The notes under the pieces: model-generated | What the model was told of the DNA's origin: nothing | Seen by the model: the letters and a program-made list of their open reading frames with translations, nothing else | Databases searched by the model: none | Program-made: the position numbers and the translations under genes | Source: Shewanella sp. | GTDB taxonomy: Bacteria > Pseudomonadota > Gammaproteobacteria > Enterobacterales > Shewanellaceae | Assembly (NCBI GenBank): GCA_004195335.1 | Contig: SDWK01000501.1 | Span: 1-13,185 of the forward strand | DNA length: 13,185 nucleotides | Direction of reading: 5' to 3' | Shown: positions 80 to 13,064 of the stretch, in pieces | Layout of the letters: the number at the start of each line of letters is the position of its first letter | Numbering within the stretch: position 1 is the stretch's first letter

Positions 80-925
80 TTATGCCTGCCTTGCCGTCGA
101 TTTACATACCGATATCACCGAAGCTATCAGTGGTTCTTTCATCCTACTGGCTTGATAGGCCAGTCCAATTCTTTTCATTAGTTTCTCGTTGGCGATAGGA
201 CGTAACACAAAGCCATCGTTATGTTTTATTTCCAGCCAGTCAGGTAGTAGGGCGGCGCCGACACCGGCACTGACCAAAGGCCAAGCATACTCTATGGTTC
301 GGATGTTGGCTCTTGGCTGAAACTGAACGCCCTCAACGGCCATGGCTTGTTTTAATCTTTCCAGCGCATCGCATGGAGTGCGGTTAATAAAGGGGATACC
401 TGCAAGGTCTTCGATAGAGATCAGTGGCTTAGTCGCTAATGACCAGCTGCTGGGGATGGCAAGCTGATATCTGTCCTCCCAGATCGGGATAAAGTCTTCA
501 CAACTCGATGCAGACTGAGATAAAACCACCCGTGCATCGCAGGGCTCATCGGGTTCAACTAGGGTTAATTCCAGATTCTCTATGCGTTTAGTCAGCTCGG
601 TGAGTAGTTCACTCATGCGCTGGGCCCCCAAGGAACGCATGAGTCCCAGGCGCAGGGGAACAGGTGTGGGTCCATCGCTGAAAAGATGCAGAATTGACTG
701 TTCGTTATCACTCATCTCTCTGGCAAGAGGATAGAGTTTATCGGCCGCAGAAGTCGGCCTGACGCCCCCCGCATGACGAACAAACAGCTCAATGTTGAGT
801 TCTTGTTCCAGCTGTGAAATCGCTGCGGTGATCGAAGGCTGTGAAACGAAGCACTGACGCGCTGCACCTGTGATGCTGCCCTGTTCGTAGACTGACTGAA
901 AGTACTTGATCGATCTGAGTTTCAT
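80..925 (-). CDS. LysR-family transcriptional regulator, likely regulator of the adjacent amino-acid operon
   Basis: A 281-residue DNA-binding regulator. The N-terminal winged helix-turn-helix is typical of LysR proteins (about residues 1-60: LRSIKYFQSVYEQGSITGAA, then VSQPSITAAISQLEQELN), followed by a linker helix and a substrate-binding-like effector domain (about 85-275). The ATG at 925 is preferred because it begins exactly at the family's MKLRSIKYF start and has TAGGA about 8 bases upstream. The frame stays open to 994, but that extension (KHSRLKPLLHG) is translated from a REP-like palindrome. The gene is divergent from the aminomutase operon, the usual arrangement for a LysR regulator and its target; symmetric candidate sites lie between them. 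The effector is unknown; an operon substrate or intermediate is the natural guess. Its stop codon lies at the junction with a polA fragment. Confidence 0.93.
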   Translation of the reverse strand: MKLRSIKYFQSVYEQGSITGAARQCFVSQPSITAAISQLEQELNIELFVRHAGGVRPTSAADKLYPLAREMSDNEQSILHLFSDGPTPVPLRLGLMRSLGAQRMSELLTELTKRIENLELTLVEPDEPCDARVVLSQSASSCEDFIPIWEDRYQLAIPSSWSLATKPLISIEDLAGIPFINRTPCDALERLKQAMAVEGVQFQPRANIRTIEYAWPLVSAGVGAALLPDWLEIKHNDGFVLRPIANEKLMKRIGLAYQASRMKEPLIASVISVCKSTARQA

Positions 926-956
926 TAAAAATCCTATTAAGCTACGAGCGACTCCA

Positions 957-980
957 TGTAGGAGCGGCTTTAGCCGCGAA
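957..980. repeat. REP-like palindromic element
   Basis: The sequence GTAGGAGCGGCTTTAGCCGC begins at 958 and forms a stem (GCGGCT 964-969, AGCCGC 972-977) headed by GTAG. Repetitive extragenic palindromes of the type mobilised by RAYT transposases have this GTAG-plus-palindrome form, and near-identical elements are common in Pseudomonas and other gammaproteobacteria (from memory). It lies just upstream of the lysR start, so it would be in the lysR leader or promoter region. Only one copy is in this window. Confidence 0.6.
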
Positions 981-1129
981 TGTTTCAGGGCCACGAGCTA
1001 GGAGCTAGAGTGATCGCAGCTTGTCTTTGTTTATACTCGATCTTCGAAACATTCTTAGCCTTGTCTTATTCTCGCGACTTTCTCTGCTTCTCAGTCTACT
1101 CAGGCTTTTCTATGTAAACAAGCTCTAGC

Positions 1130-1146
1130 CATAGGCTTTGGCTATG
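1130..1146. promoter_or_regulatory. Candidate LysR-type regulator binding site (CATAG-N7-CTATG)
   Basis: A perfect 5-base dyad, CATAG (1130-1134) and CTATG (1142-1146), encloses a 7-base spacer and contains the classic LTTR pattern T-N11-A (T1132, A1144). A slightly shifted pair, TAGCCA 1126-1131 and TGGCTA 1139-1144, overlaps it. It lies between the divergent lysR and mutase genes, where autoregulation and operon activation sites are expected. Role is inferred from position and symmetry only. Confidence 0.5.
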
Positions 1147-1193
1147 AACGGCATAAAAAGATTGTATTTCATCAATGTCCCTAAAAATTGTAT

Positions 1194-1208
1194 GGTTAAT
1201 AATTAACC
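1194..1208. promoter_or_regulatory. AT-rich 15-base perfect palindrome, candidate operator
   Basis: GGTTAAT-A-ATTAACC is a perfect inverted repeat with a single central base, 204 bases before the mutase ATG and 48 bases from the T-N11-A dyad. Its symmetry is typical of a homodimer binding site. It may be a second LysR contact site or belong to another regulator; the sequence does not decide. Confidence 0.4.
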
Positions 1209-1250
1209 GTCGAGAGCTGTCGTTTTACGATTGATTTACTACTTTTGTTG

Positions 1251-1306
1251 AAAAGCTCTTGTTCAAAAGCTCTTTTTGAAGAGCTTGTGTTTAACAGCTC
1301 GTGTTA
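1251..1306. repeat. Four degenerate 14-base tandem repeats upstream of the mutase gene
   Basis: Four consecutive 14-base units start at 1251, 1265, 1279 and 1293: AAAAGCTCTTGTTC, AAAAGCTCTTTTTG, AAGAGCTTGTGTTT, AACAGCTCGTGTTA. Each carries an AGCT core at the same offset. Weaker echoes (AAAA..GTG..TT) continue to about 1360. The last clear unit ends 105 bases before the mutase ATG, so the array probably lies in or near the promoter or untranslated leader. Confidence 0.6.
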
Positions 1307-1411
1307 GAAATATTTTTATTAAAAAGTGCTTACTTAAAACTCATATTAAAACGTGTTTAAGAAGAGCACCGCTCCTCGATAGGGGAGACAAATCACTGAT
1401 AGGACATAATA

Positions 1412-3013
1412 ATGAGCAATCAGAACTCTGCCGAACGCATTATCACAACCTCAAGCCCGCAAAAGCATTTAGTCGTTAACACCGCTGCTGTCGAACAGAC
1501 AATGACCCGATACGGGTACAGTGATGAGACGATGAATATCATCAACCAAGAGAGGTTGTTGCCGGCAGGATTGCTTAGCAGGTTGCATGCCTCCTATCCC
1601 CAGCACTCAGGTTTTCTCGAAAGCCGTGAGTTTCTTTTTATTGAGAAAGATCACTACACGGGCTTGTCCGGATTTCGAGAAGTCTGCGCGATACTGAATA
1701 AGAATGGCATAGATATCGGTGCCATCGACGAGCGTGAACTGTTTGTCGAGGTGTACCGTTTCCTGGCGACGCGCCACACACTGAACAGCATCAATTGGGA
1801 TGATTATCCAACCGATTCAGTATTCCAGCTGGTGTTCCCGCAACCCGGGATGATCGATGAGCAGACCACGCAGCAATATGTGGACAGTCAGGATGCTAAG
1901 GCCCGCACTCAGATTGCTATCGATTATATGGAGAAGACCAATCCACACGACGGCAATCAGCAGCTAAATAAGCCTTGGTTTGTAAACGATGAAGGCGTGC
2001 TGGAGTTTCTCGATGGCAGCCAGCATAAGTATCCCCAGTGCCAGCTGGTGTTTGATAAAACCACCCAAAACTGTTTCTCCTTCTGTACTTACTGTTTCCG
2101 GCACGCTCAGGTCCGTGGCGATGAAGATATGTTTATCCAAAAAGATATTGCCCAACTGCATGAATACCTGAGACGACATACCGAAGTGACCGATATTTTG
2201 ATCACAGGTGGTGATGGTGGTTATATGCCGGTGAGCCGCTTACGCCAGTATGTGATGCCGCTTATCGAAGATCCCTCTTTGCTACATGTTAAAAATGTCC
2301 GCCTGGCAACCCGGGCGCTGACCTTCCAACCTGAGATGGTGTTAACTGAAAAGTATCAACCTATGTTGGAGTTGTTCGACACTCTGCGTGATAACGGCGT
2401 GCAACTGGCGTGGATGGCCCACTTTTCTACGCCGCGGGAGTTACTCAACCCAAGCACCATAGCGGCGATTCGTCGTCTGCAAAATCATGGGGTGAATATT
2501 CGTAGTCAGAGTCCGATGATGAACCATATCAGCCTGTTCAAAGATGAAGCGGGCAATGTCGATGTTGAACGCTCCTCTCAAAACTGGATCGATCTGGCCA
2601 CGATTCTGGGCATGATGTGTGTGGGCTTCCATTCCATGTATTGCGCCCGCCCAACCGGCGAGCATCATTACTACACCGCGCCGCTGGCCGATATGAGCAA
2701 GATTTTTAATCGTATCTATCGCTCACTCGCCTCCATCAATCGTCCTTCACGTCATATCTCCATGACGATATCGGCAGGAAAATTAGCCATCTTGGGGACT
2801 TCGGTGGTGAATGGCGAGAAGTGTTTCGCCTTGCAATTTACCGAGGCCAGAAACATGGAATGGATGGATAGAGTGATCTTGGCTAAATATGATGAGAAGG
2901 AGAATAAGGTCGACTTCCTCACGCCACTGGATACCGATAAGTTCTTCTTCGAAGATGAACTCAAAGAGATCGAGACGGGTCTGGCAGATGCGCTGCAGCA
3001 GCGTTTAAATTAA
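1412..3013 (+). CDS. KamA-family radical SAM / PLP aminomutase (lysine 2,3-aminomutase-like, substrate uncertain)
   Basis: Predicted to move the amino group of an alpha-amino acid to the beta carbon, using an S-adenosylmethionine radical and PLP. Seen in the 533 residues: the 4Fe-4S motif C221-x3-C225-x2-C228, Arg230 two residues after the last Cys (equivalent to the carboxylate-binding Arg134 of clostridial lysine 2,3-aminomutase), GGD at 266-268 for SAM, HFSTPRE (337-343) matching the family's HFNHPNE, and Lys457 in SAGK matching the PLP-binding GGGGK. By eye, Asp293 and Asp330, which hold the lysine epsilon-amino group, are Leu375 and Ser450 here. The N-terminal region (about 200 residues before the cluster) is longer than in the clostridial enzyme, and the C-terminal zinc-binding cysteines are missing. 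AGGA at 1401-1404 supports the ATG. First gene of the operon, 21 bases before the CoA-transferase. Lysine is unlikely; a carboxylate-ended substrate such as 2-aminoadipate fits the neighbours better (inference). Confidence 0.9.
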   Translation: MSNQNSAERIITTSSPQKHLVVNTAAVEQTMTRYGYSDETMNIINQERLLPAGLLSRLHASYPQHSGFLESREFLFIEKDHYTGLSGFREVCAILNKNGIDIGAIDERELFVEVYRFLATRHTLNSINWDDYPTDSVFQLVFPQPGMIDEQTTQQYVDSQDAKARTQIAIDYMEKTNPHDGNQQLNKPWFVNDEGVLEFLDGSQHKYPQCQLVFDKTTQNCFSFCTYCFRHAQVRGDEDMFIQKDIAQLHEYLRRHTEVTDILITGGDGGYMPVSRLRQYVMPLIEDPSLLHVKNVRLATRALTFQPEMVLTEKYQPMLELFDTLRDNGVQLAWMAHFSTPRELLNPSTIAAIRRLQNHGVNIRSQSPMMNHISLFKDEAGNVDVERSSQNWIDLATILGMMCVGFHSMYCARPTGEHHYYTAPLADMSKIFNRIYRSLASINRPSRHISMTISAGKLAILGTSVVNGEKCFALQFTEARNMEWMDRVILAKYDEKENKVDFLTPLDTDKFFFEDELKEIETGLADALQQRLN

Positions 3014-3034
3014 TAATCATAAGGTGTTGTAAAT

Positions 3035-3745
3035 ATGATAGATAAACGTATAGCGTCATGTGCCGAGGCGGTGGCCGATATTTTCGATGGCGCGACTGTG
3101 ATGATAGGTGGTTTCGGTGAGGCTGGCAGTCCGATAGAGCTTATTCATGCCTTGATCGATCACGGTGCCCGCAATCTTACCGTGATTAATAATAATACCG
3201 GTAGCGGCCATGTGGGTCTGGCGGCTCTGATTGAGAATGGCCAGGTTGGTAAGATGATCTGCTCATTCCCGCGAACCGCCAATTCAACGGTATTTCCCGA
3301 TCTTTATCGTGCCGGCAAGATAGAGCTCGAGTTAGTGCCTCAGGGCACGCTTGCCGAACGGATCCGCGCCGGAGGCGCCGGGATCCCGGCCTTCTATACG
3401 GCGACATCAGTAGGGACGCCGCTGGCCGATGGCAAAAAACATGAGATATTCGATGGACAAGAGTTCGTACAAGAGCGTGGTCTGAAGGCCGATTTTGCCC
3501 TGATAAAGAGTCTCAAGGCCGACCGTTATGGCAACCTGATATACAACAAGACGGCGCGAAATTTCGCCCCCATCATGGCGATGGCAGCCAAGTGCGCAGT
3601 AGTGCAGACCCAACAATTTGTCGAAGCGGGTGATATCGATCCCGAGGTTGTCGTCACCCCCGGCATTTTTGTTAATCGTATCGTGACCGTGGCAAACCCG
3701 GCTCAAGAGTCGAAGTTAGTCAATGCCGGAGTAACCTATCCATGA
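3035..3745 (+). CDS. pcaI: 3-oxoacid CoA-transferase subunit A, PcaI-like (3-oxoadipate type)
   Basis: Alpha subunit (236 residues) of a family I CoA-transferase that would activate a beta-keto acid using succinyl-CoA or acetyl-CoA as donor. The GGFGEAGSP loop (25-33), CSFPR (76-80), LYRAGKIELELVPQGTLAER (90-109) and the ARNFAPIMAMAAK stretch (174-186) match Pseudomonas PcaI closely. The SFPR...LYRAGKIELE segment separates it from acetoacetate-type AtoD, which reads differently there. AAGGTG at 3021-3026 sits 8 bases before the ATG. The stop overlaps the start of subunit B (ATGA), the usual coupling for a heteromeric enzyme. No protocatechuate or catechol genes lie nearby, so the 3-oxoacid presumably comes from the neighbouring mutase and aminotransferase rather than aromatics. 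Family assignment is firm; substrate is inferred. Confidence 0.92.
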   Translation: MIDKRIASCAEAVADIFDGATVMIGGFGEAGSPIELIHALIDHGARNLTVINNNTGSGHVGLAALIENGQVGKMICSFPRTANSTVFPDLYRAGKIELELVPQGTLAERIRAGGAGIPAFYTATSVGTPLADGKKHEIFDGQEFVQERGLKADFALIKSLKADRYGNLIYNKTARNFAPIMAMAAKCAVVQTQQFVEAGDIDPEVVVTPGIFVNRIVTVANPAQESKLVNAGVTYP

Positions 3746-4452
3746 GCAACCTAACCATGAGTAGTCTATTTATGAGTAAAATAAGTCAACACAATCATAA
3801 TGATGAATCAGCTGGGATAGGTTGGGATCGTGAGCAGATGGCGCATAAGGCCGCTCAGGATATTCCCGACGGTGCCTATGTAAACTTAGGTATAGGGATC
3901 CCGGAAAAGGTCGCTCGCTATGTTCCGCAGGGACGTGAAGTGATCTACCACACCGAGAATGGCTTGCTGGGAATGGGGCCGACACCAGAAGATGATGAGA
4001 TAGATTTTGAGCTTATCAATGCGGGTAAGAAACCTGTCAGCGCAATAGCTGGCGCGGCCTATTTTCATCATGCCGACAGCTTTGCCATGATCCGTGGCAA
4101 ACATATCGATGTCTGTGTGTTGGGTGCGATGCAGGTTTCGGCTAAGGGGGATCTGGCCAATTGGTCAACGGGTGCCGTCGATGCCATTCCTGCCGTAGGG
4201 GGGGCCATGGATCTGGTCGCCGGGGTTAAAACCATCTTTGTTATCACTCAGCATACGACTAAGCAGGGCGAGCCCAAGTTGATCGATTATTGCAGTTACC
4301 CGCTGACGGGACGCGGGGTGGTGAGTCGCATCTATACCGATCTGGCCGTTATCAAGGTTACTGAGCAAGGTTTAGAGGTGGTCGAGCTGGCGCCGGGTGT
4401 CGATTTTGACTATGTGCAGCAGCGCACCGGTTGTGAACTGCTTCGCCCCTAA
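3742..4452 (+). CDS. pcaJ: 3-oxoacid CoA-transferase subunit B, PcaJ-like (3-oxoadipate type)
   Basis: Beta subunit carrying the catalytic glutamate: Glu72 in TENGLLGMGP (71-80), which forms the glutamyl-CoA intermediate in family I CoA-transferases. Other PcaJ-like stretches are DGAYVNLGIG (43-52), AYFHHADSFAMIRG (106-119), KGDLANW (135-141) and IPAVGGAMDL (149-158). The chosen ATG overlaps the subunit A stop (ATGA), suggesting translational coupling, giving 236 residues. Known PcaJ proteins have about 10-15 fewer N-terminal residues, and two further in-frame ATGs at 3757 and 3772 are equally spaced, so the true start could be 3772. Expected to work as a heteromer with the preceding gene and feed the thiolase encoded at the operon end. 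Confidence 0.92.
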   Translation: MSNLTMSSLFMSKISQHNHNDESAGIGWDREQMAHKAAQDIPDGAYVNLGIGIPEKVARYVPQGREVIYHTENGLLGMGPTPEDDEIDFELINAGKKPVSAIAGAAYFHHADSFAMIRGKHIDVCVLGAMQVSAKGDLANWSTGAVDAIPAVGGAMDLVAGVKTIFVITQHTTKQGEPKLIDYCSYPLTGRGVVSRIYTDLAVIKVTEQGLEVVELAPGVDFDYVQQRTGCELLRP

Positions 4453-4605
4453 TTTAAGTGAATAGTTTATGCCGCCATGGTTTAGATCTAAAGCTTAAAG
4501 CTTAAAGCCAAAGTCTAAAACCTAAAGCCTAAAGCCTAAAGCCTAAAGCCATAGTGCCAGCTAGTAGCAAGACCCCTACAACGTTTGTGAACCGGAATAG
4601 GAAAG
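4453..4605. repeat. 153-base intra-operon gap containing a TAAAGCC heptamer array (4489-4550)
   Basis: Within this gap, positions 4489-4550 hold two TAAAGCT units, one TAAAGCC, a 6-base degenerate unit, one TAAAACC and four perfect TAAAGCC units. Tandem heptamers can gain or lose copies by replication slippage. The array lies between genes that otherwise overlap or nearly touch, so it interrupts the operon's mRNA without an evident terminator. The unit resembles telomere-like C/T-A repeats only superficially. It is too short and spacer-less to be a CRISPR. Confidence 0.75.
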
Positions 4606-5976
4606 ATGGAAGATAATAAAAACGATATCCATAGCAATAAAAAACCAACCTCGCCCGACCGTAGCGCCGAACTCTACAAGAAGGCATTAACCTTGATGCC
4701 GGGTGGTTGCAGCCGTAATACGGTGCTCAGAAGCCCTAACCCTCTCTATGCCGAGTCGGCGAAGGGCTGTTATGTCACCGATATCGAAGGTGTGACGCGT
4801 ATCGATTTTGCCAATAACATGGCGGCATTGATCCATGGGCATGCTCACCCTCTGATTGTCGCCAATGTCACCGAGCAGCTCAATAAAGGCAGTGCGTTTA
4901 CCTTAGCGACCGAAGTTGAAATCGATTACGCCGAGCACTTGTGTAGTCGCAATGCGAGTTTCGAGAAGATCCGTTTCGTCAACTCAGGCACAGAGGCGGT
5001 GATGAGCTGTTTGAAGGCGGCGAGAGCCTATACAGGAAGGCCTAAAATTGCCAAGGTCGAGGGGGCTTATCATGGCCTCTATGATCATGCCGAGGTGAGC
5101 CAAACCGCCAGTCCTGCTAACTGGGGAGATGAGTCAAGTCCCAATAGTGTGCCTGTCGCCTACGGCACACCCGAAGCCACACTCAAGGATGTGGTGGTGA
5201 TCCCTTTTAACGATGTTGAGCGAGCCATCAATATCTTAGATAAGCACAAGGATGAGTTAGCCTGCGTGTTGGTGGATCTTCTGCCTCACCGTGTGGGCCT
5301 CATCCCTGCCTCGCAGGAGTTTGTGGTTGCGCTCAGACAGTGGACGACTCAGCACAATGCCCTGTTAGTTTTCGATGAGGTGATCACCTTACGTAACGGT
5401 TATGGCGGTGCACAGGATAACTATCCCATCAGTCCCGATCTGACCGCTCTGGGTAAGATGATAGGGGGCGGCTTCCCGGTCGGCGCACTGGCTGGTCGCA
5501 GTGAGGTGATGGATGTGATGAACCCGCTCAAAGATAAGGTGCTGTTTCCTCACTCAGGCACATTCTCGGCTAACCCGATCACTATGGTGGCGGGCTTAAC
5601 CGCCATGACACTGTTCGATCGAGAAGCCGTGGCTAAACTCAATGAGCTGGGTGAGCAGCTTAGGTCTCAAATCAGTGAAGTGATTGCGATAGCCGATGTT
5701 CCCGCTTGTGTCACCGGTGATGGCTCCATGTTCCGAATTCATATGAAGGCTAACCCGCCGAAGAACTATCGTGACTCCTTTGCCGATGCCAAGGAGAGCC
5801 GTATCAGAACTGCGCTGGTGGACCATCTGTTCGATAACGGATTTATGATGATCAACACCTGTTCGGGTACGCTGTCGACCGAGATGACGGGTAAAGAGGT
5901 AAACCTCTTTACCCAGGTCTTATTGGATGGATTTCGTAAAATTAAGCCAATGTTCTTATTAGTAGAAGGTCATTAA
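4606..5976 (+). CDS. Class III PLP aminotransferase, beta-amino acid transaminase / glutamate-1-semialdehyde aminomutase-like
   Basis: A 456-residue fold-type I PLP enzyme, likely to transaminate the beta-amino acid made by the mutase to a beta-keto acid. Visible features: MPGGCSRN (31-38) with Arg37 at the place of the carboxylate-contacting Arg of beta-phenylalanine aminotransferases, NSGTEA (126-131) for PLP phosphate, Asp257 in FDEVIT for the pyridine nitrogen, Lys284 in LGKMIGGGFPVGA as the Schiff-base lysine, and HSGTF (316-320). The usual VEPMQG segment reads VDLLPHRVG (223-231), an odd departure. Automated pipelines would probably call this glutamate-1-semialdehyde 2,1-aminomutase, but a true HemL role is not supported by this context. 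AGGA just before the ATG is close (3 bases); GGA at 4594 is better spaced. One base separates its stop from the thiolase start. B. subtilis YodT, in a kamA cluster with CoA-transferase genes, is a useful parallel (known). Confidence 0.9.
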   Translation: MEDNKNDIHSNKKPTSPDRSAELYKKALTLMPGGCSRNTVLRSPNPLYAESAKGCYVTDIEGVTRIDFANNMAALIHGHAHPLIVANVTEQLNKGSAFTLATEVEIDYAEHLCSRNASFEKIRFVNSGTEAVMSCLKAARAYTGRPKIAKVEGAYHGLYDHAEVSQTASPANWGDESSPNSVPVAYGTPEATLKDVVVIPFNDVERAINILDKHKDELACVLVDLLPHRVGLIPASQEFVVALRQWTTQHNALLVFDEVITLRNGYGGAQDNYPISPDLTALGKMIGGGFPVGALAGRSEVMDVMNPLKDKVLFPHSGTFSANPITMVAGLTAMTLFDREAVAKLNELGEQLRSQISEVIAIADVPACVTGDGSMFRIHMKANPPKNYRDSFADAKESRIRTALVDHLFDNGFMMINTCSGTLSTEMTGKEVNLFTQVLLDGFRKIKPMFLLVEGH

Positions 5977-5977
5977 C

Positions 5978-7195
5978 ATGAGTTCAAATAAGCTGAAAGA
6001 TGTCTATATTTGCGATGCCGTCAGGACACCGATAGGACGCTATGGTGGGGCGTTATCTTCCGTTCGGGCCGATGACTTAGCGGCCTTACCACTTAAGGCA
6101 TTGATGGAGCGAAATCCGGGAGTCGATTGGCAGGCTGTCGATGATGTGTTGCTGGGGTGCGCTAACCAGTCCGGCGAAGATAATCGTAACGTGGCCAGAA
6201 TGGCGACGCTGCTTGCCGGCCTGCCTCAAGAAGTCCCCGGCTGTACGGTCAATCGCTTGTGTGGTTCGGGTCTTAATGCCATTGGCGATGCGGCTCGCGC
6301 GATCAGCTGTGGTGAAGCCGACTTGATGATTGCTGGTGGTGTCGAGAGTATGTCCCGCGCCCCCTTCGTCATGCCTAAAGCCACAACCCCCTTCTCACGT
6401 TCAACCGAGTTCTATGACACCACCATGGGCTGGCGTTTTATCAATCCTAAATTCGATGCCGACTATGGTACCGAGGCTATGCCCCAGACGGCTGAGAATC
6501 TGGCTCATGACTTTGGCATCAGCCGTGAAGATCAGGATAAGTTTGCGCTCTGGAGTCAGCAAAAAGCGGCGGCGGCACAAGAGGATGGCCGACTGGCCCA
6601 AGAGATTATCGAGGTGAGCATTCCTATGCGCCGAGCCGATCCGGTGATCTTCAATCAAGATGAACATCTGCGTGGGACGAGTCTGGATAAGCTTGCCAAG
6701 TTAAGGCCCCTGTTCGATGCCGGCTCAATCACGGCGGGTAACGCCTCGGGGCTTAACGATGGCGCCGCTGCTCTGCTGCTTGCCTCTGGCGATGCGGTTA
6801 AGCGATATAACCTTAAGCCCAAAGCCAGAATATTGGGTATGGCCGTTGCGGGCGTCCCTCCAAGGGTCATGGGATTGGGCCCGGTTCCAGCGACCAGAAA
6901 GTTGCTTAAAAGGTTAGCACTCACTCTGGATGACATGGATATTCTCGAGTTTAATGAAGCCTTTGCCGCCCAAGCATTAACCTGTACTCGTGAGCTTGGG
7001 TTAAAGGATGATGACCCTAGAATAAACCCACAGGGTGGCGCTATCGCACTCGGGCACCCTCTGGGTATGAGTGGCGCTCGTTTGGCCACCAGTGTGACTT
7101 ATCAGCTAGAGCGAACTCAGGGAAAACTGGCGCTATGCACCATGTGTGTCGGCGTGGGGCAAGGGATCGCTATGGTGATAGAGAGAGTGGAATGA
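5978..7195 (+). CDS. pcaF: Acetyl-CoA acyltransferase, PcaF-like 3-oxoadipyl-CoA thiolase
   Basis: A 405-residue degradative thiolase that would cleave the beta-ketoacyl-CoA with free CoA into acetyl-CoA and a shortened acyl-CoA. Catalytic residues are all present: Cys95 in NRLCGSG, NEAFA (326-330), His360 in GHPLGMSG and Cys390 in CTMCVGVGQG. Long stretches match Pseudomonas PcaF rather than FadA or acetoacetyl-CoA thiolases: ICDAVRTPIGRYGGAL (11-26), GCANQSGEDNRNVARMA (60-76), VESMSRAPFVM (122-132) and TTMGWRFINP (148-157). With 3-oxoadipyl-CoA the products are succinyl-CoA and acetyl-CoA. The start has AGAAGG 8 bases upstream, overlapping the end of the aminotransferase gene, which makes them almost certainly co-transcribed. 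Last gene of the operon. Confidence 0.93.
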   Translation: MSSNKLKDVYICDAVRTPIGRYGGALSSVRADDLAALPLKALMERNPGVDWQAVDDVLLGCANQSGEDNRNVARMATLLAGLPQEVPGCTVNRLCGSGLNAIGDAARAISCGEADLMIAGGVESMSRAPFVMPKATTPFSRSTEFYDTTMGWRFINPKFDADYGTEAMPQTAENLAHDFGISREDQDKFALWSQQKAAAAQEDGRLAQEIIEVSIPMRRADPVIFNQDEHLRGTSLDKLAKLRPLFDAGSITAGNASGLNDGAAALLLASGDAVKRYNLKPKARILGMAVAGVPPRVMGLGPVPATRKLLKRLALTLDDMDILEFNEAFAAQALTCTRELGLKDDDPRINPQGGAIALGHPLGMSGARLATSVTYQLERTQGKLALCTMCVGVGQGIAMVIERVE

Positions 7196-7210
7196 TAAAA
7201 GCTGCTGATT

Positions 7211-7273
7211 CTAGGAACGAGTCGCGAGGTTCTAGTTTCCAGACCTTAGACCCTAGGCTCCTCGTGCCTAGAT
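7211..7273. repeat. Heptamer-phased intergenic tract (YNAG every seven bases)
   Basis: Read in sevens from 7211, the first seven units are CTAGGAA, CGAGTCG, CGAGGTT, CTAGTTT, CCAGACC, TTAGACC, CTAGGCT: each begins with pyrimidine-N-A-G. Two further units (CCTCGTG, CCTAGAT) lose phase by one base. The tract also contains an inverted repeat CTAGGC/GCCTAG (7253-7258, 7266-7271). It starts 16 bases after the thiolase stop and resembles the heptamer array inside the operon in period but not in exact sequence. Confidence 0.5.
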
Positions 7274-7298
7274 ATCTGAGGATATGTCAGATTTTCTT
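7274..7298 (+). terminator. Weak candidate intrinsic terminator after the thiolase gene
   Basis: ATCTGA (7274-7279) and TCAGAT (7287-7292) form a 6-base stem with a 7-base loop, followed immediately by TTTCTT. The stem is short and AT-rich, so termination would be modest; the CTAGGC hairpin just upstream might add to it. Position, about 80 bases after the last operon gene and before the next gene, suits an operon end. Confidence 0.35.
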
Positions 7299-7429
7299 AA
7301 AATTTAAATATAGGCAATTAAAATTCGTGGAATCTTAACGCTAAAACTGGTTGCATCGGCGAAAGTCATCTAGATTTAAATTAACTATTAGTTAGTTAGT
7401 TATTATTTAAATGGAGATAGGAGAAAATA

Positions 7430-7861
7430 ATGCGCACTCGTAAAATACTCTGTCCCACCGATTTTTCCGAGACAGCATCTCATGCTTTGGGTTATGCCAT
7501 GGAAATGGCTCGACATTATCAAGTCGGTATCTGTTTATTGCACGTGATAGATAAGCCTTTTGGTGATAAACACACACGGGTCTTGTCAGTGACATCCGAG
7601 GAACTAGCGACTCGGTTGGGAGGAGAGGCTGCTGAAAAGATGCAAGTGCTGATAGCGGACTTGGATACTGAGGTGAAAATTGAGGTATTGATCCGCCACG
7701 GACATGCCACTAAACAAATTTTGGATGCGGCTAAAGAGATTAATGCCGGGATGATAGTCATGGCCAGTCATGGTTACACAGGTCTGAGCCACTTTCTGCA
7801 TCCGAATGTCGCTGAAGCCATTGCAAGTGGAGCCGAATGCCCAGTGTTGGTGGTGAAATAA
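7430..7861 (+). CDS. Universal stress protein (UspA family), single domain
   Basis: A 143-residue cytoplasmic Usp-fold protein. It opens with the family signature KILCPTDFSETASHAL (5-20), has the LLHVID strand (36-41), and ends with the usual MASHGYTGL...CPVLVV block (111-142). In ATP-binding relatives this block carries G-x2-G-x9-G-(S/T). Here it reads Ala112-x2-Gly115-x9-Pro125-Asn126, so the phosphate-binding Gly-Ser is replaced and ATP binding is doubtful, as in the UspA-like subgroup (inference). The ATG has a strong AGGAG at 7419-7423, 6 bases upstream. Monocistronic by appearance: AT-rich DNA with a TTAG tetranucleotide run (7386-7402) precedes it and a 411-base gap follows. No link to the catabolic operon is visible. 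Confidence 0.93.
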   Translation: MRTRKILCPTDFSETASHALGYAMEMARHYQVGICLLHVIDKPFGDKHTRVLSVTSEELATRLGGEAAEKMQVLIADLDTEVKIEVLIRHGHATKQILDAAKEINAGMIVMASHGYTGLSHFLHPNVAEAIASGAECPVLVVK

Positions 7862-7876
7862 TATTATACCGTTCAA

Positions 7877-7913
7877 TTGCGCTAGGGCCTGAATCTAAAG
7901 GTCTTTAGCGCAA
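7877..7913. other. Hairpin downstream of the stress protein gene
   Basis: TTGCGCTA (7877-7884) pairs perfectly with TAGCGCAA (7906-7913) around a 21-base loop, with extra G-T and G-C pairs possible inside. No T-run follows on either strand, so it is not a standard intrinsic terminator. It could stabilise the 3' end of the stress-protein mRNA or be a protein site. Confidence 0.45.
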
Positions 7914-7931: not shown

Positions 7932-8009
7932 ATGGCCAGCGACAAAACGTCAGCCAGTGAACCCGTGCGGGTGAAGGTCGTCGAAAATAACTCATTAAAC
8001 CCCGTTTAA
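7932..8009 (+). CDS. Possible 25-codon small ORF or gene-start remnant
   Basis: ATG at 7932 opens 25 codons ending in TAA at 8007-8009. The peptide starts MASDKTSASEPV and ends with RVKVVENNSLNPV. It is richer in GC than its flanks and its composition (acidic, polar start, then a VKVVE strand) looks like a protein N-terminus rather than random AT-rich spacer. There is only a weak AGAG upstream and I recognise no family. It may be a true small protein, a leftover start of a lost gene, or chance. Confidence 0.2.
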   Translation: MASDKTSASEPVRVKVVENNSLNPV

Positions 8010-8272
8010 CAGTAAACCTCTTAATTATCAGCTTTTAATCGTGCCAACAATATTTTACATCTTCTGTTTAAACCTTATTAAATAGAGTAATCCTTTGTCT
8101 TATATTCATTTTCACAATTAAATTAGAGTTATCTGTTGCTAAGTGACTGTTGGTAAGAGCAAAATTTGTCCAGTATTTTTTATTGTTTGTTATGCTTAAT
8201 ATTAGGGCTCGAAAAACGGAATGGCTGAGCTGGAACAAAGGAGGTGATAAACCTGACTCGGTAGGTAGTGTG

Positions 8273-9898
8273 ATGGTCAATTTAAAGATTAAACAAAAAA
8301 TGACACTGGGATTGTTAGTCCCGTTAATTCTATTAATCAGCATCTGTTTTCTAGCGGTCAACATGATGGGGAAAATCGAAACAGGTGTTGTAAGCATATA
8401 TAACGACAGGGTTGTCCCTCTGGAAGATCTTAAAATTATCGGAGATGACTACGCGGTTTCGGTTATCGATGCGATCAATAAAGCCAATGCCGGGATGTTC
8501 AGCGCCACTGAAGCCAGTCGTGCAATGACTGAGTCCAGTCGAAATATCAGTGAGAAGTGGGATGGCTATATGGCAACGACCTTGACCGATGAGGAGTCCA
8601 GGTTAGCTAAGGAAGCCAATCGATTATTCACCCCAGCCAATCAAGAAATCTCTAAACTTGTCAATAAGCTTAACAGCATGCAAGGTGCGGCGACGGGTCA
8701 ATTGAATGATGATATCGCGCCTCTCTATGACGTGATAGACCCTATCAGCGGAAAAATTGCAGAGCTGGTCAGCCTTCAGTTAAGGGTCGCGGGCGAGGAG
8801 AAAGACAGGGTCGATGAAATTTACTCATCCTCTATGAAAATTTTTATCATCTTGACGCTGACCGCCATAGTGACGAGTGTCTTGATTGGACTCTGGGTGA
8901 CTCGAGCTGTAATGCGACCCATAGATAATATTGTCAGCACGCTTAATACGGTTCGGATCGACTCGGATCTGACCGTGACATTTAAGACCTTTAACGACGA
9001 TGAACTCGGACAGATATCGACCAATCTGACACTGGTGATTGAGCATCTGCGTGGCATTCTTAATTCTATCGCCCTTGCCGCCAATACCGTCGGTGATTCG
9101 ACTATGAAATTGAGTGAGTTTACTCAGCAAACCAATGACAGAATGCATCAACAGCAATCGGAAACAGAGCAGACTGCAGCCGCGATGAACCAGATGACGG
9201 CAACGGTGGCCGAGGTTGCTCAGAGTGCGACTAACGCCGCCGATTCGGCAAAAGATGCTGAAACCAATGCGACTAAAGGGAATGATATTGTTCAGCAATC
9301 GGTTGCCAGTATGACTCTGCTCTCTAAACAGATAGAACAAACCTCAGAGGTGATTACTCATCTGGCCAGCGAAAGTCACAATATTGGTAGCGTTCTGGAT
9401 GTGATCAAAGGGATCGCCGAGCAGACTAACCTGTTGGCGTTAAATGCGGCCATTGAGGCGGCTAGAGCGGGTGAACAGGGGCGTGGGTTTGCAGTTGTGG
9501 CCGACGAGGTAAGAACTCTGGCACAACGAACCCAAGAGTCGACTCAAGAGATCGAATCTATGATCGATGGGTTGCAAAAAGGGGTTCAAGAAGCGGTTGG
9601 GGCCATGAAAGTCGGCACCGAGCAGGTTTATGATGCCAATGAGAAAGCGCACATGGCCGGAGAAGCCCTTAATGAAATCGTGATTTCGGTCGATAATATC
9701 AGCAACATGAATACTCAGATCGCCACCGCTGCCGAAGAGCAAAGCAGTGTAGCCGAAGACATAAACCGAAGCATTATCGCTATCAGCGATATCGCTCAAA
9801 CCTCTACCATGGCGGCTCAGGAGCTGACAACTTCGGTGGCCGAACTAACCAGTTTGTCGGAAAGTATGCGTGAGCAGGTGAGCCAGTTTAAGCTTTAG
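8273..9898 (+). CDS. Methyl-accepting chemotaxis protein with periplasmic four-helix sensor domain
   Basis: A 541-residue inner-membrane chemoreceptor that would signal through CheW and CheA. Order of parts: short cytoplasmic N-terminus, TM1 (about 10-31), helical periplasmic sensor (about 32-188, with [17 protein letters not shown] typical of four-helix-bundle MCP sensors), TM2 (about 189-209), HAMP (about 209-262), and a long cytoplasmic coiled-coil hairpin whose tip is [20 protein letters not shown] (383-402) followed by [15 protein letters not shown]. There is no NWETF-like C-terminal tether for CheR/CheB. The frame is open back to a TTG at 8150, but the ATG at 8273 gives the normal receptor N-terminus; TAGG is 7 bases upstream. 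Its ligand cannot be read from sequence. A strong terminator follows, so it appears monocistronic. Confidence 0.93.
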
Positions 9899-9921
9899 GT
9901 TTTCTGGTCACTATCAAGCTG

Positions 9922-9954
9922 AGACAGAACCTTATGGTTCTGTCTTTCTGTTTT
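9922..9954 (+). terminator. Strong intrinsic terminator after the chemotaxis gene
   Basis: AGACAGAACC (9922-9931) and GGTTCTGTCT (9936-9945) form a perfect 10-base stem with a TTAT loop, followed by TTCTGTTTT. It begins 24 bases after the chemotaxis gene stop. On the minus strand no T-run follows the stem, so it should mainly act on plus-strand transcripts, separating this gene from the convergent DUF924 gene. Confidence 0.88.
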
Positions 9955-9979
9955 AACAGTCATTATCTTATTAATCGTT

Positions 9980-10561
9980 TTAAAAACTTGAGCCCGGTTG
10001 TGACAAAAACTCCAGTTCGACCGCAGTCGATTCTCGCCTGAGGATCTCGTTTCTGTGAGGGTATCTTCCAAAGCGGTCGATTATGGCTTTATGGCGGCGC
10101 TCAAACTCCAGGTTACCCTTGGCCGACTCACGACTAAATAAGATCATCGCCACTTCGTGGATGCGGGGAGATTCGCTGTGCATGTAAGGCATAAACAGGA
10201 ATGGAACCTGTTTACCTTTGAGCTCACTATCGATATTCAGTGCAACGGCTTCCTGGGCTAAGGTCAGAGCCATGGGATCGGCGCCAAACGCCTCAGGTGT
10301 ATCACGATAGATGTTACGGCAGAACTGATCCAGGACAATGATTTCGGCGAGCCGTCCCTCCGGCGTCGTGCGCCAGTGGTAGAGTTCGCCACGTTTCGCC
10401 TGCTGGACCAGTTCACCAAATCGTTCCTTAAGCAGGCTATCGAATTGTGTGTCTTTAACCCACCAAAGTTTAGGATCGATCTCTTCAAACCAGAAGTTGA
10501 TGATGGTATCGGGGGTTATATTAATAATGATTTGACTATTAATTTGATTGCTGGTGTTCAA
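9980..10561 (-). CDS. DUF924 family protein (TPR-like helical fold, function unknown)
   Basis: A 193-residue soluble protein with the full DUF924 pattern: INFWFEE plus WW (21-34), LDQFCRNIYRDTPEAFGADP (77-96), PFLFMPYMHSE (120-130) and RFGRYPHRNEILRREST (163-179). The family is widespread in proteobacteria, also present in eukaryotes, and has no firmly established biochemical role; a TPR-like all-helical fold is assumed. The start is a TTG at 10561, supported by AAGGAG nine bases upstream (10571-10576 on the plus strand) and by the absence of a nearby in-frame ATG. Downstream of the PH-domain pair on the same strand with a 114-base gap, so it may be read through or have its own promoter. Confidence 0.88.
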   Translation of the reverse strand: MNTSNQINSQIIINITPDTIINFWFEEIDPKLWWVKDTQFDSLLKERFGELVQQAKRGELYHWRTTPEGRLAEIIVLDQFCRNIYRDTPEAFGADPMALTLAQEAVALNIDSELKGKQVPFLFMPYMHSESPRIHEVAMILFSRESAKGNLEFERRHKAIIDRFGRYPHRNEILRRESTAVELEFLSQPGSSF

Positions 10562-10675
10562 TGTCTGACTCTCCTTGGCTGGCGACTATATCCAAACGAC
10601 CTCGAAATGCAGGTTTCATATTTATTGAAATTAAGGCTGCTCCACTGACTATTTAAATATCTACTATTTCTTCGA
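10562..10675. other. Short intergenic region upstream of the DUF924 gene
   Basis: AT-rich gap containing the imperfect dyad TTTCA (10614-10618) / TGAAA (10626-10630). I see no intrinsic terminator for the upstream PH-domain gene, so transcription may continue into the DUF924 gene. Confidence 0.3.
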
Positions 10676-12292
10676 TTAGATCCAGTTGGTATGATCTTTA
10701 GCCGTGATAGCCAATGCCCGTTCGGCGATATTTCTGGCGTCGCTCAAGGGCATATAAGGGATGGTCAAAGGGCCGCTGGCAAGTCCCAGCTCCAGGCTGG
10801 CCAACTGCTTTCGTTTTTGGCTAGGTGTTTGGGTAATGGCCACATGTTGGACTTTTTTCAATGCGATAAGGTCCCAGGTCTGTCCGAGCATACCGGTATG
10901 GACCCAGCAATCATCTCCCTGATGCAGATAACCCCATTGTCGATATCTCAAATAGAGGCCAATCACAAAGCAGATGGCCGCAAACCATAACAGTTCAGTG
11001 AAGGGATTCAGCCCAATGAATAAGGTATTTACCAAAGGGATGAGTAGCGGCAAGAAGCCTCGACGCCAAAACCAACCAAGATGGATCCGAGAGTAGGAGT
11101 GAGGCAATGTTGAACTTTCAGAGACTAACCCCGACAGTTTAGGCATTAACTCTGCGATGGCTTCTCTTGTCATGCTAGGGACTAGCATATGCTTCTTTGC
11201 GACCTGTTCAACTTCAGTCCCTTTGACTTGCTTGAAGTTCATTGTCCATAGCTTGAGAAAGCGACCAATAACGGGCTGAGTAAAGCGAATGACCTGTATT
11301 CTATGTTGTGTCAGAGCATCATTTTGCTTAGCAATCACCCCGCCGGTTCTATGCAGAGTATCTCCGCTTAAGCTCAGCTGGTAGGGATAATACTTGAGTA
11401 CGGATGCTGCCATCGAAATCAGTGAAAGTAACAGATAAAAGCCGATAATGAGTGAGATGGCGAAGAGCAGCTGGAGCAGCATATTTACCGCGATGGTTTG
11501 CTCATACCAATGCATTGCACCTAGGGCTTGGTCGGTATTTGCCAGGGCCTCCCAATCAAACTGACCGATAATAGGGCCTGCGATAATGGCAAACCAAAAT
11601 AGATTATTTTGATAGAAGCCGAACAGTAATAGTGATTTCATCTTTTTCAATACCAAGGGGGCCGTTAAGCTTTGGCTGTTGGTAAAGCGAGATTCAAAGG
11701 GGACTTCATTATTCGCCTGACTGGCATCTGTTCTGGCTTGATTAGACGTAAATTTCTGGGATGTTTCAGGCTTATTTTCCGGCTCTGGATCGGAAGAGTG
11801 CTGTGGGTTAACCAGTTGCTGTTTGAGCTCTATGGCTTGCTGGTAACTGACCGCGGCTAATACGGCTTCATCTTTTTTGGATCCTGCAGTTTCTACTACT
11901 AAACTATAGAGGCCCATAGGTCGGAAGTAGAAGGGCTGTTCCAGGCGAATGTTTTGAATCTTACTCTGGGGAATTTCATGAGCCTTCTTAAAAATGAGCC
12001 CTTGGCGTATCCCCAACTTGTCATCGAATAAGCGATAGCGAAACATGGCCCAGTCTATAATCGCGCTGATGAGGATCAGTAAGCATACAGCGACAAAGGC
12101 GATGATCATCCAGGGAGAATCAAATCCTTGTTTCCAACCTGTATAGATGAAAGGCACCATGGCGTAGCCGTTCGTGATTAGGATACGAATGGTGTTAAAG
12201 GTAAAACTCACGATCGACCATGGAGACAGGCCCTTCCACTGAGTGAGTATCTGACTCATATTAATGCTCTGCCCTGTCGACTGCGGGCTCAT
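10676..12292 (-). CDS. YdbT-like membrane protein with three bacterial PH (DUF304) domains
   Basis: A 538-residue inner-membrane protein with three repeats of a membrane-helix pair followed by a bacterial PH domain: TM about 28-52 and 60-84 then PH 83-160; TM about 219-244 and 269-298 then PH 300-385; TM about 411-448 then PH 450-530. A polar, low-complexity linker (163-208) follows the first PH domain. Proteins of this layout are paired with a YdbS-type partner in many bacteria; in Bacillus subtilis YdbST has been linked to resistance to an antimicrobial peptide (from memory). Start is uncertain: the ATG at 12292 has GAGG 9 bases upstream and overlaps the partner gene by 32 bases; the ATG at 12259 begins right after the partner's stop, giving 527 residues. 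Either way the two genes are coupled. Confidence 0.87.
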   Translation of the reverse strand: MSPQSTGQSINMSQILTQWKGLSPWSIVSFTFNTIRILITNGYAMVPFIYTGWKQGFDSPWMIIAFVAVCLLILISAIIDWAMFRYRLFDDKLGIRQGLIFKKAHEIPQSKIQNIRLEQPFYFRPMGLYSLVVETAGSKKDEAVLAAVSYQQAIELKQQLVNPQHSSDPEPENKPETSQKFTSNQARTDASQANNEVPFESRFTNSQSLTAPLVLKKMKSLLLFGFYQNNLFWFAIIAGPIIGQFDWEALANTDQALGAMHWYEQTIAVNMLLQLLFAISLIIGFYLLLSLISMAASVLKYYPYQLSLSGDTLHRTGGVIAKQNDALTQHRIQVIRFTQPVIGRFLKLWTMNFKQVKGTEVEQVAKKHMLVPSMTREAIAELMPKLSGLVSESSTLPHSYSRIHLGWFWRRGFLPLLIPLVNTLFIGLNPFTELLWFAAICFVIGLYLRYRQWGYLHQGDDCWVHTGMLGQTWDLIALKKVQHVAITQTPSQKRKQLASLELGLASGPLTIPYMPLSDARNIAERALAITAKDHTNWI

Positions 12293-13064
12293 CTTCGTTA
12301 GCCTCTTGGTTCACCTCTGCAGCGGTTTTGATCGCTATTGCAGCCATAGTGAGTAGGTGTTGTCTGAGTTTTTCTGCGGTTTCACTCTCTAATCCCGGTA
12401 GCTCTATCTCTGCACTGCCGCTTCCGGCGCTAAAGCATTTAAGAGTCCGTAAATTAAATTTTCGCTCTAAGGGACCTTGAGACAGGCTGATATGCTGCAG
12501 TCGGGTATAGGGAAGCGAGATCCGCTTTACCCAAAAAATACCGGTCTGCATCACCAGTTCATGACGGCAAGCTGCGTAACCTATAGCTTTAGCATGGGTG
12601 TACCTCAGCCAAGTGATCGTTGAGCCAATCAGTAATAGGGCTGGAATGACAATTGCCGCGATGTGCAGGGGAATGGTAGCGACAAAAATCAGAAATACCG
12701 ACAAGATAGAGATAAGAATTACTGCAATAGTTGCCGTTTCAATGAGTACTTGTGTGTAATGACGCGGCTCAACTGGCGACAATGGGATTTGGTCAAAGCT
12801 TTGCCACTGCTCCTGAGGTTGTGGATTGTGATCTAATTGACAGCTTTTTACGGAGGGCTCTACGGTAGAGTGTTCTACAGGAGAGCTTAAAGGAGAGTTC
12901 TTTACATGAGAGTCATCTATGAGAGAGTGCTTCTCGACAGAGTCGATTGAGGGTGCAAGATCCGTTATCACCGCAGAATCTAGCTCAATAGTCGGCTCTT
13001 TGATTGAATCTTTGACCTTGGTAGCAACTAAACTCTCTTTTATTTCAGTTGTTTCATGGGGCAT
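12261..13064 (-). CDS. YdbS-like membrane protein with one bacterial PH (DUF304) domain and long acidic N-terminus
   Basis: A 267-residue protein: a polar, acidic, probably disordered N-terminal stretch (1-88), two adjacent membrane helices (about 107-129 and 133-155), then a bacterial PH domain (155-240) with the recognisable RHELVMQTGIFWVKRISLPYTRLQHI block and the RTLKCFSAGSGSAEIELPGL strand pair. Typical YdbS proteins are near 160 residues, so about 80 N-terminal residues are extra. No internal ATG precedes the membrane helices, so the long form is taken as real, though its ribosome-binding site (CGGA) is weak. Its stop sits inside or next to the start of the YdbT-like gene, implying one operon and a joint membrane complex (inference). 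The promoter should lie in 13065-13185; I could not identify it clearly. Confidence 0.87.
   Translation of the reverse strand: MPHETTEIKESLVATKVKDSIKEPTIELDSAVITDLAPSIDSVEKHSLIDDSHVKNSPLSSPVEHSTVEPSVKSCQLDHNPQPQEQWQSFDQIPLSPVEPRHYTQVLIETATIAVILISILSVFLIFVATIPLHIAAIVIPALLLIGSTITWLRYTHAKAIGYAACRHELVMQTGIFWVKRISLPYTRLQHISLSQGPLERKFNLRTLKCFSAGSGSAEIELPGLESETAEKLRQHLLTMAAIAIKTAAEVNQEANEDEPAVDRAEH

Follow-up and report, generated by a model that had tools for sequence, protein, structure and literature searches.

A five-gene operon at positions 1412-7195 of the window (the whole 13,185-nucleotide stretch analyzed here, from the genome of a marine Shewanella) quite likely degrades L-2-aminoadipate to succinyl-CoA and acetyl-CoA by way of a KamA-like 2,3-aminomutase, hereafter Mut. 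We favor this substrate because aminoadipate-semialdehyde dehydrogenase (ALDH7) and saccharopine enzymes are encoded next to related operons, an Asp of the lysine-binding site is exchanged for Arg in Mut, the thiolase is of the 3-oxoadipyl-CoA type, and intradiol dioxygenases (PF00775) are scarce in Mut-carrying genomes. The operon may well represent an undescribed branch of lysine degradation, found in eight named phyla, in which a new 2-aminoadipate 2,3-aminomutase would open a way to succinyl-CoA and acetyl-CoA that conserves all carbon and involves neither glutaryl-CoA nor oxygenases.

We infer all reactions and substrates from gene order, protein families, predicted fold, residue exchanges, and linkage. 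Mut, a radical S-adenosylmethionine and pyridoxal phosphate (PLP) enzyme, would move the amino group of L-2-aminoadipate from C2 to C3, and the class III aminotransferase would convert the resulting 3-aminoadipate to 3-oxoadipate. PcaI/PcaJ may then activate 3-oxoadipate to 3-oxoadipyl-CoA, with succinyl-CoA as the probable CoA donor, and the PcaF thiolase would cleave this product to succinyl-CoA and acetyl-CoA. In bacteria that possess saccharopine or lysine-dehydrogenase-type enzymes and ALDH7, these steps would make up the lower half of a route from lysine in which 2-oxoadipate, glutarate, and glutaryl-CoA do not occur and all carbon is retained.

The five genes and the active site of the mutase

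All five open reading frames (ORFs) lie on the forward strand, with intergenic gaps of 21, -4, 153, and 1 nt, and a LysR gene stands divergently at 80-994; profile searches and the ORF coordinates confirmed a LysR-flanked operon for aminomutase, PcaI/PcaJ-type CoA-transferase, class III aminotransferase, and PcaF thiolase, the run described in the original prediction. Mut (1412-3013, 533 aa), the proposed 2-aminoadipate 2,3-aminomutase, is followed by the PcaI-like subunit A (3035-3745; TIGR02429, 347 bits, cut-off 128.5) and PcaJ-like subunit B (3742-4452; TIGR02428, 299 bits, cut-off 243.6) of a 3-oxoacid CoA-transferase, a PF00202 aminotransferase of the GSA/beta-transaminase group (4606-5976), which may act as a 3-aminoadipate transaminase, and a PcaF-like 3-oxoadipyl-CoA thiolase (5978-7195; TIGR02430, 686 bits, cut-off 597; PRK09050, 704 bits, cut-off 605). 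Three genes had been assigned to the 3-oxoadipate type, and all three pass the cut-offs of the respective TIGR models. In ten further loci that were scanned, the thiolase exceeds the PRK09050 cut-off throughout and the pcaF (TIGR02430) cut-off in nine, with matches taken to E 1e-185, so that a weaker pcaF score in the remaining locus (L070; loci are denoted by L numbers) would not show. The closest solved structures to the aminotransferase are 6k8h and 6ssd (ForI), and the beta-transaminases 6iz9, 2yku, and 4ao9 match as well.

The operon resembles the aromatic pcaIJF end in the final two steps but would be fed by transamination. Taking an intradiol ring-cleavage dioxygenase in the genome as the mark of the aromatic beta-ketoadipate pathway, we found no PF00775 match in the window genome, in agreement with the ring-cleavage genes having been described as missing; such matches are absent from 59 of 65 Mut genomes and present in just six. 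If the proposal is true, it cautions that pcaIJF operons need not be aromatic pathways.

Mut belongs to the KamA-type superfamily, carrying the CxxxCxxC motif and the PLP lysine in a predicted lysine 2,3-aminomutase (LAM) fold, and is a distinct subfamily therein, since it does not reach the cut-off of NCBIfam TIGR00238 (65 bits, cut-off 199.2). Its scores are also low for the lysine 2,3-aminomutase model TIGR03820 (57 bits, cut-off 525) and the glutamate 2,3-aminomutase model TIGR04368 (50 bits, cut-off 650). With LAM (KamA/AblA; 2a5h) it shares the fold, the motif, the PLP lysine, and an Arg that presumably binds the alpha-carboxylate, but it is longer, lies far below the family cut-offs, and differs at two residues, Asp293 and Asp330, which we take to bind the side-chain amine of lysine in LAM. 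In an alignment of 66 Mut sequences, the Asp293 position is Arg in all 66 (R413 in the window, placed by sequence alignment), and the Asp330 position is Ser in 41 and Thr in 25 (Ser450 in the window); at the former position, AblA, BlsG, EpmB, and KamA2, included for comparison, carry Asp. These exchanges fit a substrate with a side-chain carboxylate and disfavor lysine. A protein search returned 1408 Mut relatives at E<=0.001, among which more distant subfamilies may be included; the 120 best of them have no Pfam domain, and the named ones are mostly called 'hypothetical protein' or 'lysine 2,3-aminomutase'. Were the proposal true, this large family would gain a function and radical enzymes a new substrate.

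Arg at the Asp293 position also occurs in another clade, whose members share 32-36% identity with Mut (L149:7872-9251, L150:5827-7179, L152:7866-9182, and L155 and L157 near 8001-9185). Its three annotated members (Mycetohabitans, Streptomyces, and Rhodococcus plasmids; 438-459 aa) are labelled 'lysine 2,3-aminomutase', which is doubtful because of this Arg, and the Rhodococcus mutase sits in a biosynthesis-like cluster.

Conservation of the operon and linkage to lysine degradation

A survey of gene neighborhoods for linkage of Mut to pcaIJF-like genes had been suggested. Of 89 relatives found in genome contigs, the best 80 were kept, and in 55 of these loci PcaI, PcaJ, aminotransferase, and thiolase follow Mut on the same strand. 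Nine loci are without the thiolase only, for which a contig end accounts in four (L040-L043), and two end after PcaJ near a contig end. The other 14 have none of the four partners within the limits used: 11 from Colwelliaceae, L038 and L077 at contig ends (the former still showing a PcaI start), and L080:10001-11781 from an Alteromonadaceae metagenome-assembled genome (MAG), where the Mut frame is broken into two tblastn pieces and short ORFs. In Colwelliaceae (L025-L034 and L044), Mut is separated from the other operon genes, with a different LysR beside it in L025-L034; in Colwellia L030 and L033, thiolase and aminotransferase homologues (in L033 also PcaJ) lie ~6.5-10 kb away on the opposite strand. 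Carriers of Mut come from Pseudomonadota, Thermodesulfobacteriota, Bacteroidota, Ignavibacteriota, Planctomycetota, Acidobacteriota, Sumerlaeota, and Cloacimonadota, many of them MAGs in which misbinned contigs are possible. The gene is uncommon, occurring in 15 of 97 Shewanella genomes and in one of 295 sampled Bacteroidia, that one being the centre genome of the sample. The window's source genome measures 5.93 Mb in 1060 contigs (contamination 4.91), and its nearest relatives by Mut are S. canadensis (98% identity) and S. atlantica (97%).

Clustering of flanking ORFs revealed ALDH7 homologues in 11 of the 80 loci and saccharopine-dehydrogenase-like proteins in 10, and tblastn recovered the same sets. 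The four dehydrogenases tested (one from L063, two from L022, and one from L023) reach 799-807 bits with NF050084, whose cut-off is 730, and that of L063 matches solved antiquitins and Pcd. In L022, a Geobacter MAG, the Mut start as called lies 27 nt after an ALDH7 stop on the same strand, and a pair of ALDH7 genes over the cut-off (L022:8381-9913 and L022:16494-18050) stands on either side of the single Mut operon. Two proteins matching saccharopine reductase flank the operon in L063, and tblastn found flanking homologues in nine more Prolixibacteraceae loci, of which L042 shows only the upstream one on a contig that ends early; in Draconibacterium and Maribellus, saccharopine reductase homologues flank the operon as well as ALDH7 being linked to it. 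At the genome level, NF050084 is exceeded in 35 of 80 Mut genomes (20/50 and 15/30 in two batches), namely in 0/29 from Alteromonadales/Vibrionales and 35/51 from all other groups. The ALDH7 gene of the L057 and L038 genomes (loci L106 and L110) is followed by an LKR-like gene, and the L110 protein, the one of the two that was compared, gives 298 bits to mitochondrial AASS. In the genome of L018, a gamma MAG, a gene for a dehydrogenase related to 3abi (which we take to be PH1688, a lysine dehydrogenase) directly precedes ALDH7. In Motiliproteus L017, the contig breaks off in a frame starting MKMTFLENL, a short resemblance only to the ALDH7 of L116, which starts MQTTFLQNL. These linkages, the Asp-to-Arg exchange, and the conserved pcaIJF-like partners all point to 2-aminoadipate, the substrate originally guessed on chemical grounds.

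Some other neighbors were observed in these loci. In Desulfuromusa, ALDH7 is separated from the Mut operon by the genes of an ABC amino-acid transporter (L023:4928-7995; ATPase, SBP_bac_3, and two permeases), possibly a lysine or aminoadipate importer. A DAO-type FAD oxidoreductase downstream of the aminotransferase in L018 (15099-16406) could feed in pipecolate or D-lysine, and a 4HBT thioesterase gene precedes Mut in both Motiliproteus loci (L016:9152-9565 and L017:4895-5329).

The logic of the proposed pathway equals that of beta-lysine degradation, as in the Bacillus yod cluster and the Pseudomonas beta-lysine route, and the proposed route would be a variant of it. The operon shares with the yod cluster the succession of mutase, transaminase, and CoA-transferase (PMC6522883 for KamA and YodT), but it has no N-acetyltransferase among its five genes, contains PcaF and a GSA-type aminotransferase, and uses another mutase subfamily. 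Bacterial lysine routes almost all finish at glutaryl-CoA (PMC5653290), and some run from 2-aminoadipate to 2-oxoadipate and onward, including that of HglS (PMC7286885); the proposed pathway would share their upper part, from lysine to 2-aminoadipate, but replace alpha-transamination of 2-aminoadipate by amino migration. Among the matches listed in the open-licence literature, judged by title and opening of the abstract, we found neither an aminoadipate mutase nor 3-aminoadipate as a catabolic intermediate; two of the listed papers name 3- or beta-aminoadipic acid. Such an end of lysine degradation, if true, would suit anaerobic or facultative sediment bacteria, because neither glutaryl-CoA dehydrogenase nor oxygen is needed.

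Regulation, the source of 2-aminoadipate, and alternative substrates

A dedicated LysR regulator probably controls the operon in Gammaproteobacteria. The window's regulator (80-994, reverse strand; PF00126 and PF03466), whose true start is likely near 925 judging from homologues, recurs in the same divergent arrangement with Mut in L001-L015, L020, and L046, all of them gamma loci. Between LysR and Mut lies a dyad with the consensus CTATAG-N7-CTATAG, whose cores ATA and CTAT are invariant in 18 of 18 aligned regions; the window's copy at 1129-1147, a probable LysR-type binding site by prediction, is degenerate with three mismatches. In Motiliproteus L017, three matches with <=2 mismatches were found where 0.12 were expected, a number reached in none of 200 shuffles, and all are intergenic: before LysR, before the Mut unit (ahead of the thioesterase gene), and before the frame at the contig end that starts like ALDH7. 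Next to ALDH7 in L116 and L023 there are also LysR homologues, with 37-40% identity. At two mismatches the sole match in the window falls in the PcaJ-aminotransferase gap, and a strict pattern applied to ten Mut genomes, which matched the operon site in nine, was no commoner than its control; because of these two results, it is the alignment that supports the motif. No lysine gene was recognized next to the ten non-operon places of the strict pattern, so the regulon does not indicate where Shewanella would obtain 2-aminoadipate.

Several results weigh against 2-aminoadipate as the substrate. ALDH7 over the NF050084 cut-off was found in none of 97 Shewanella genomes, including the 15 with Mut, in none of the 29 Alteromonadales/Vibrionales Mut genomes, and not in the window genome, where it would have marked an upstream pathway forming 2-aminoadipate. 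Other possible sources in Shewanella were tried and rejected, as none tracks Mut: Sacchrp_dh_C (PF16653) is over the cut-off in nine of 97 genomes, of which just two carry Mut; LodA_C occurs in 3/26 Mut genomes vs 5/14 others; and LAT gave no match in 40 genomes, nor in its controls, so that its absence is not shown. None of these searches thus revealed how the window organism would come by 2-aminoadipate. Moreover, the background rate of ALDH7 in genomes without Mut is known for Shewanella only, and ALDH7 is barely clustered on the Mut tree (16 changes, 64 of 500 shuffles being as low, with labels for the first 50-genome batch). The strict LysR pattern gave 24 strand rows vs 34 for the reversed control. 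The CoA-transferase models are drawn at the subfamily level, include other 3-oxoacids, and do not fix the substrate, the aminotransferase models leave it unspecified, and Arg413 suits glutamate as well as 2-aminoadipate. Of the window genome's 17 matches to the ALDH superfamily, the best eight were inspected for neighbors, and no lysine gene was recognized there.

On the Mut tree, sequences from Shewanella, Photobacterium, Pseudoalteromonas, and Aliivibrio form one clade (18 rows, 99/96); beside it stand five Motiliproteus and gamma MAG rows, three of them with ALDH7 over the cut-off. We compared alignment columns between 34 ALDH7-positive and 18 ALDH7-negative Mut rows (ORFs of >=450 aa plus L017, counted as positive on its cut gene start, and the window). 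By the criteria used, two columns alone separate the groups, 421 (Tyr vs mostly Phe) and 289 (Ser/Thr/Arg vs mostly Glu/Ala), and neither is a mapped active-site position. We infer one substrate for both clades, with 2-aminoadipate imported or formed by an unrecognized dehydrogenase in the Shewanella-containing clade, where a substrate switch or glutamate is also possible. That 2-aminoadipate is used in ALDH7 carriers and the Shewanella/Vibrionaceae/Pseudoalteromonas clade has changed its substrate would explain why ALDH7 over the cut-off is missing there, but it is highly improbable given that Mut is 71-75% identical to ALDH7-linked gamma relatives, that only these two columns separate the groups, and that the LysR motif also precedes the Mut unit in Motiliproteus L017.

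It is rather unlikely that Mut works as a glutamate 2,3-aminomutase in an operon that converts glutamate or environmental beta-glutamate via 3-oxoglutarate to malonyl-CoA and acetyl-CoA. Glutamate is already degraded by shorter routes. Of the beta-glutamate alternative raised originally, what stands is that Arg413 would suit any side-chain carboxylate, including that of glutamate, whose constant supply would explain Shewanella without ALDH7; at the Asp293 position, Eam presumably has a basic residue too (Lys). A carboxylate side chain is likewise expected for IdnL4, a candidate radical glutamate aminomutase (PMC11284099). However, the thiolase passes the 3-oxoadipyl-CoA equivalog, Mut lies within a 3-oxoadipate module and far below TIGR04368, and ALDH7 and saccharopine enzymes are linked in several lineages. 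That Mut acts on lysine, with a beta-lysine pathway like that of Bacillus yod or Pseudomonas, is hardly credible: the enzyme logic is identical, and in some sources Mut bears the name lysine 2,3-aminomutase, but both Asp presumed to bind the side-chain amine are replaced, one by Arg, no acetyltransferase is among the five genes, and the thiolase is again of the other type; this alternative, also raised originally, is thus disfavored. PcaF-type thiolases have relatives such as PaaJ that accept longer 3-oxoacyl-CoAs, which might allow another acidic or long-chain amino acid (such as 2-aminopimelate or diaminopimelate) to yield a different 3-oxoacyl-CoA, but this is very unlikely, as ALDH7 recurs among the flanking clusters and no gene for such substrates was recognized among the recurrent ones, which were mostly not annotated further.

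Other features of the window

Terminator-like matches number 11 in 990-7900, against 6.9 expected, and none falls in the 153-nt PcaJ-aminotransferase gap, which shows no unusual folding (179 of 200 shuffles at least as stable). In the same spacer, a heptamer like AAAGCCT is repeated in tandem (4490-4550), and a perfect 11-pair hairpin lacking a strong T tail lies within the aminotransferase gene (5889-5914). Universal stress protein genes flank the operon on one or both sides in several Shewanella (7430-7861 in the window, L001-L006, and L046). The rest of the window (8270-13064) encodes a chemotaxis receptor (from ~8270), a DUF924 protein (9980-10561), and two bacterial PH-domain (bPH_2) proteins (10676-13064).

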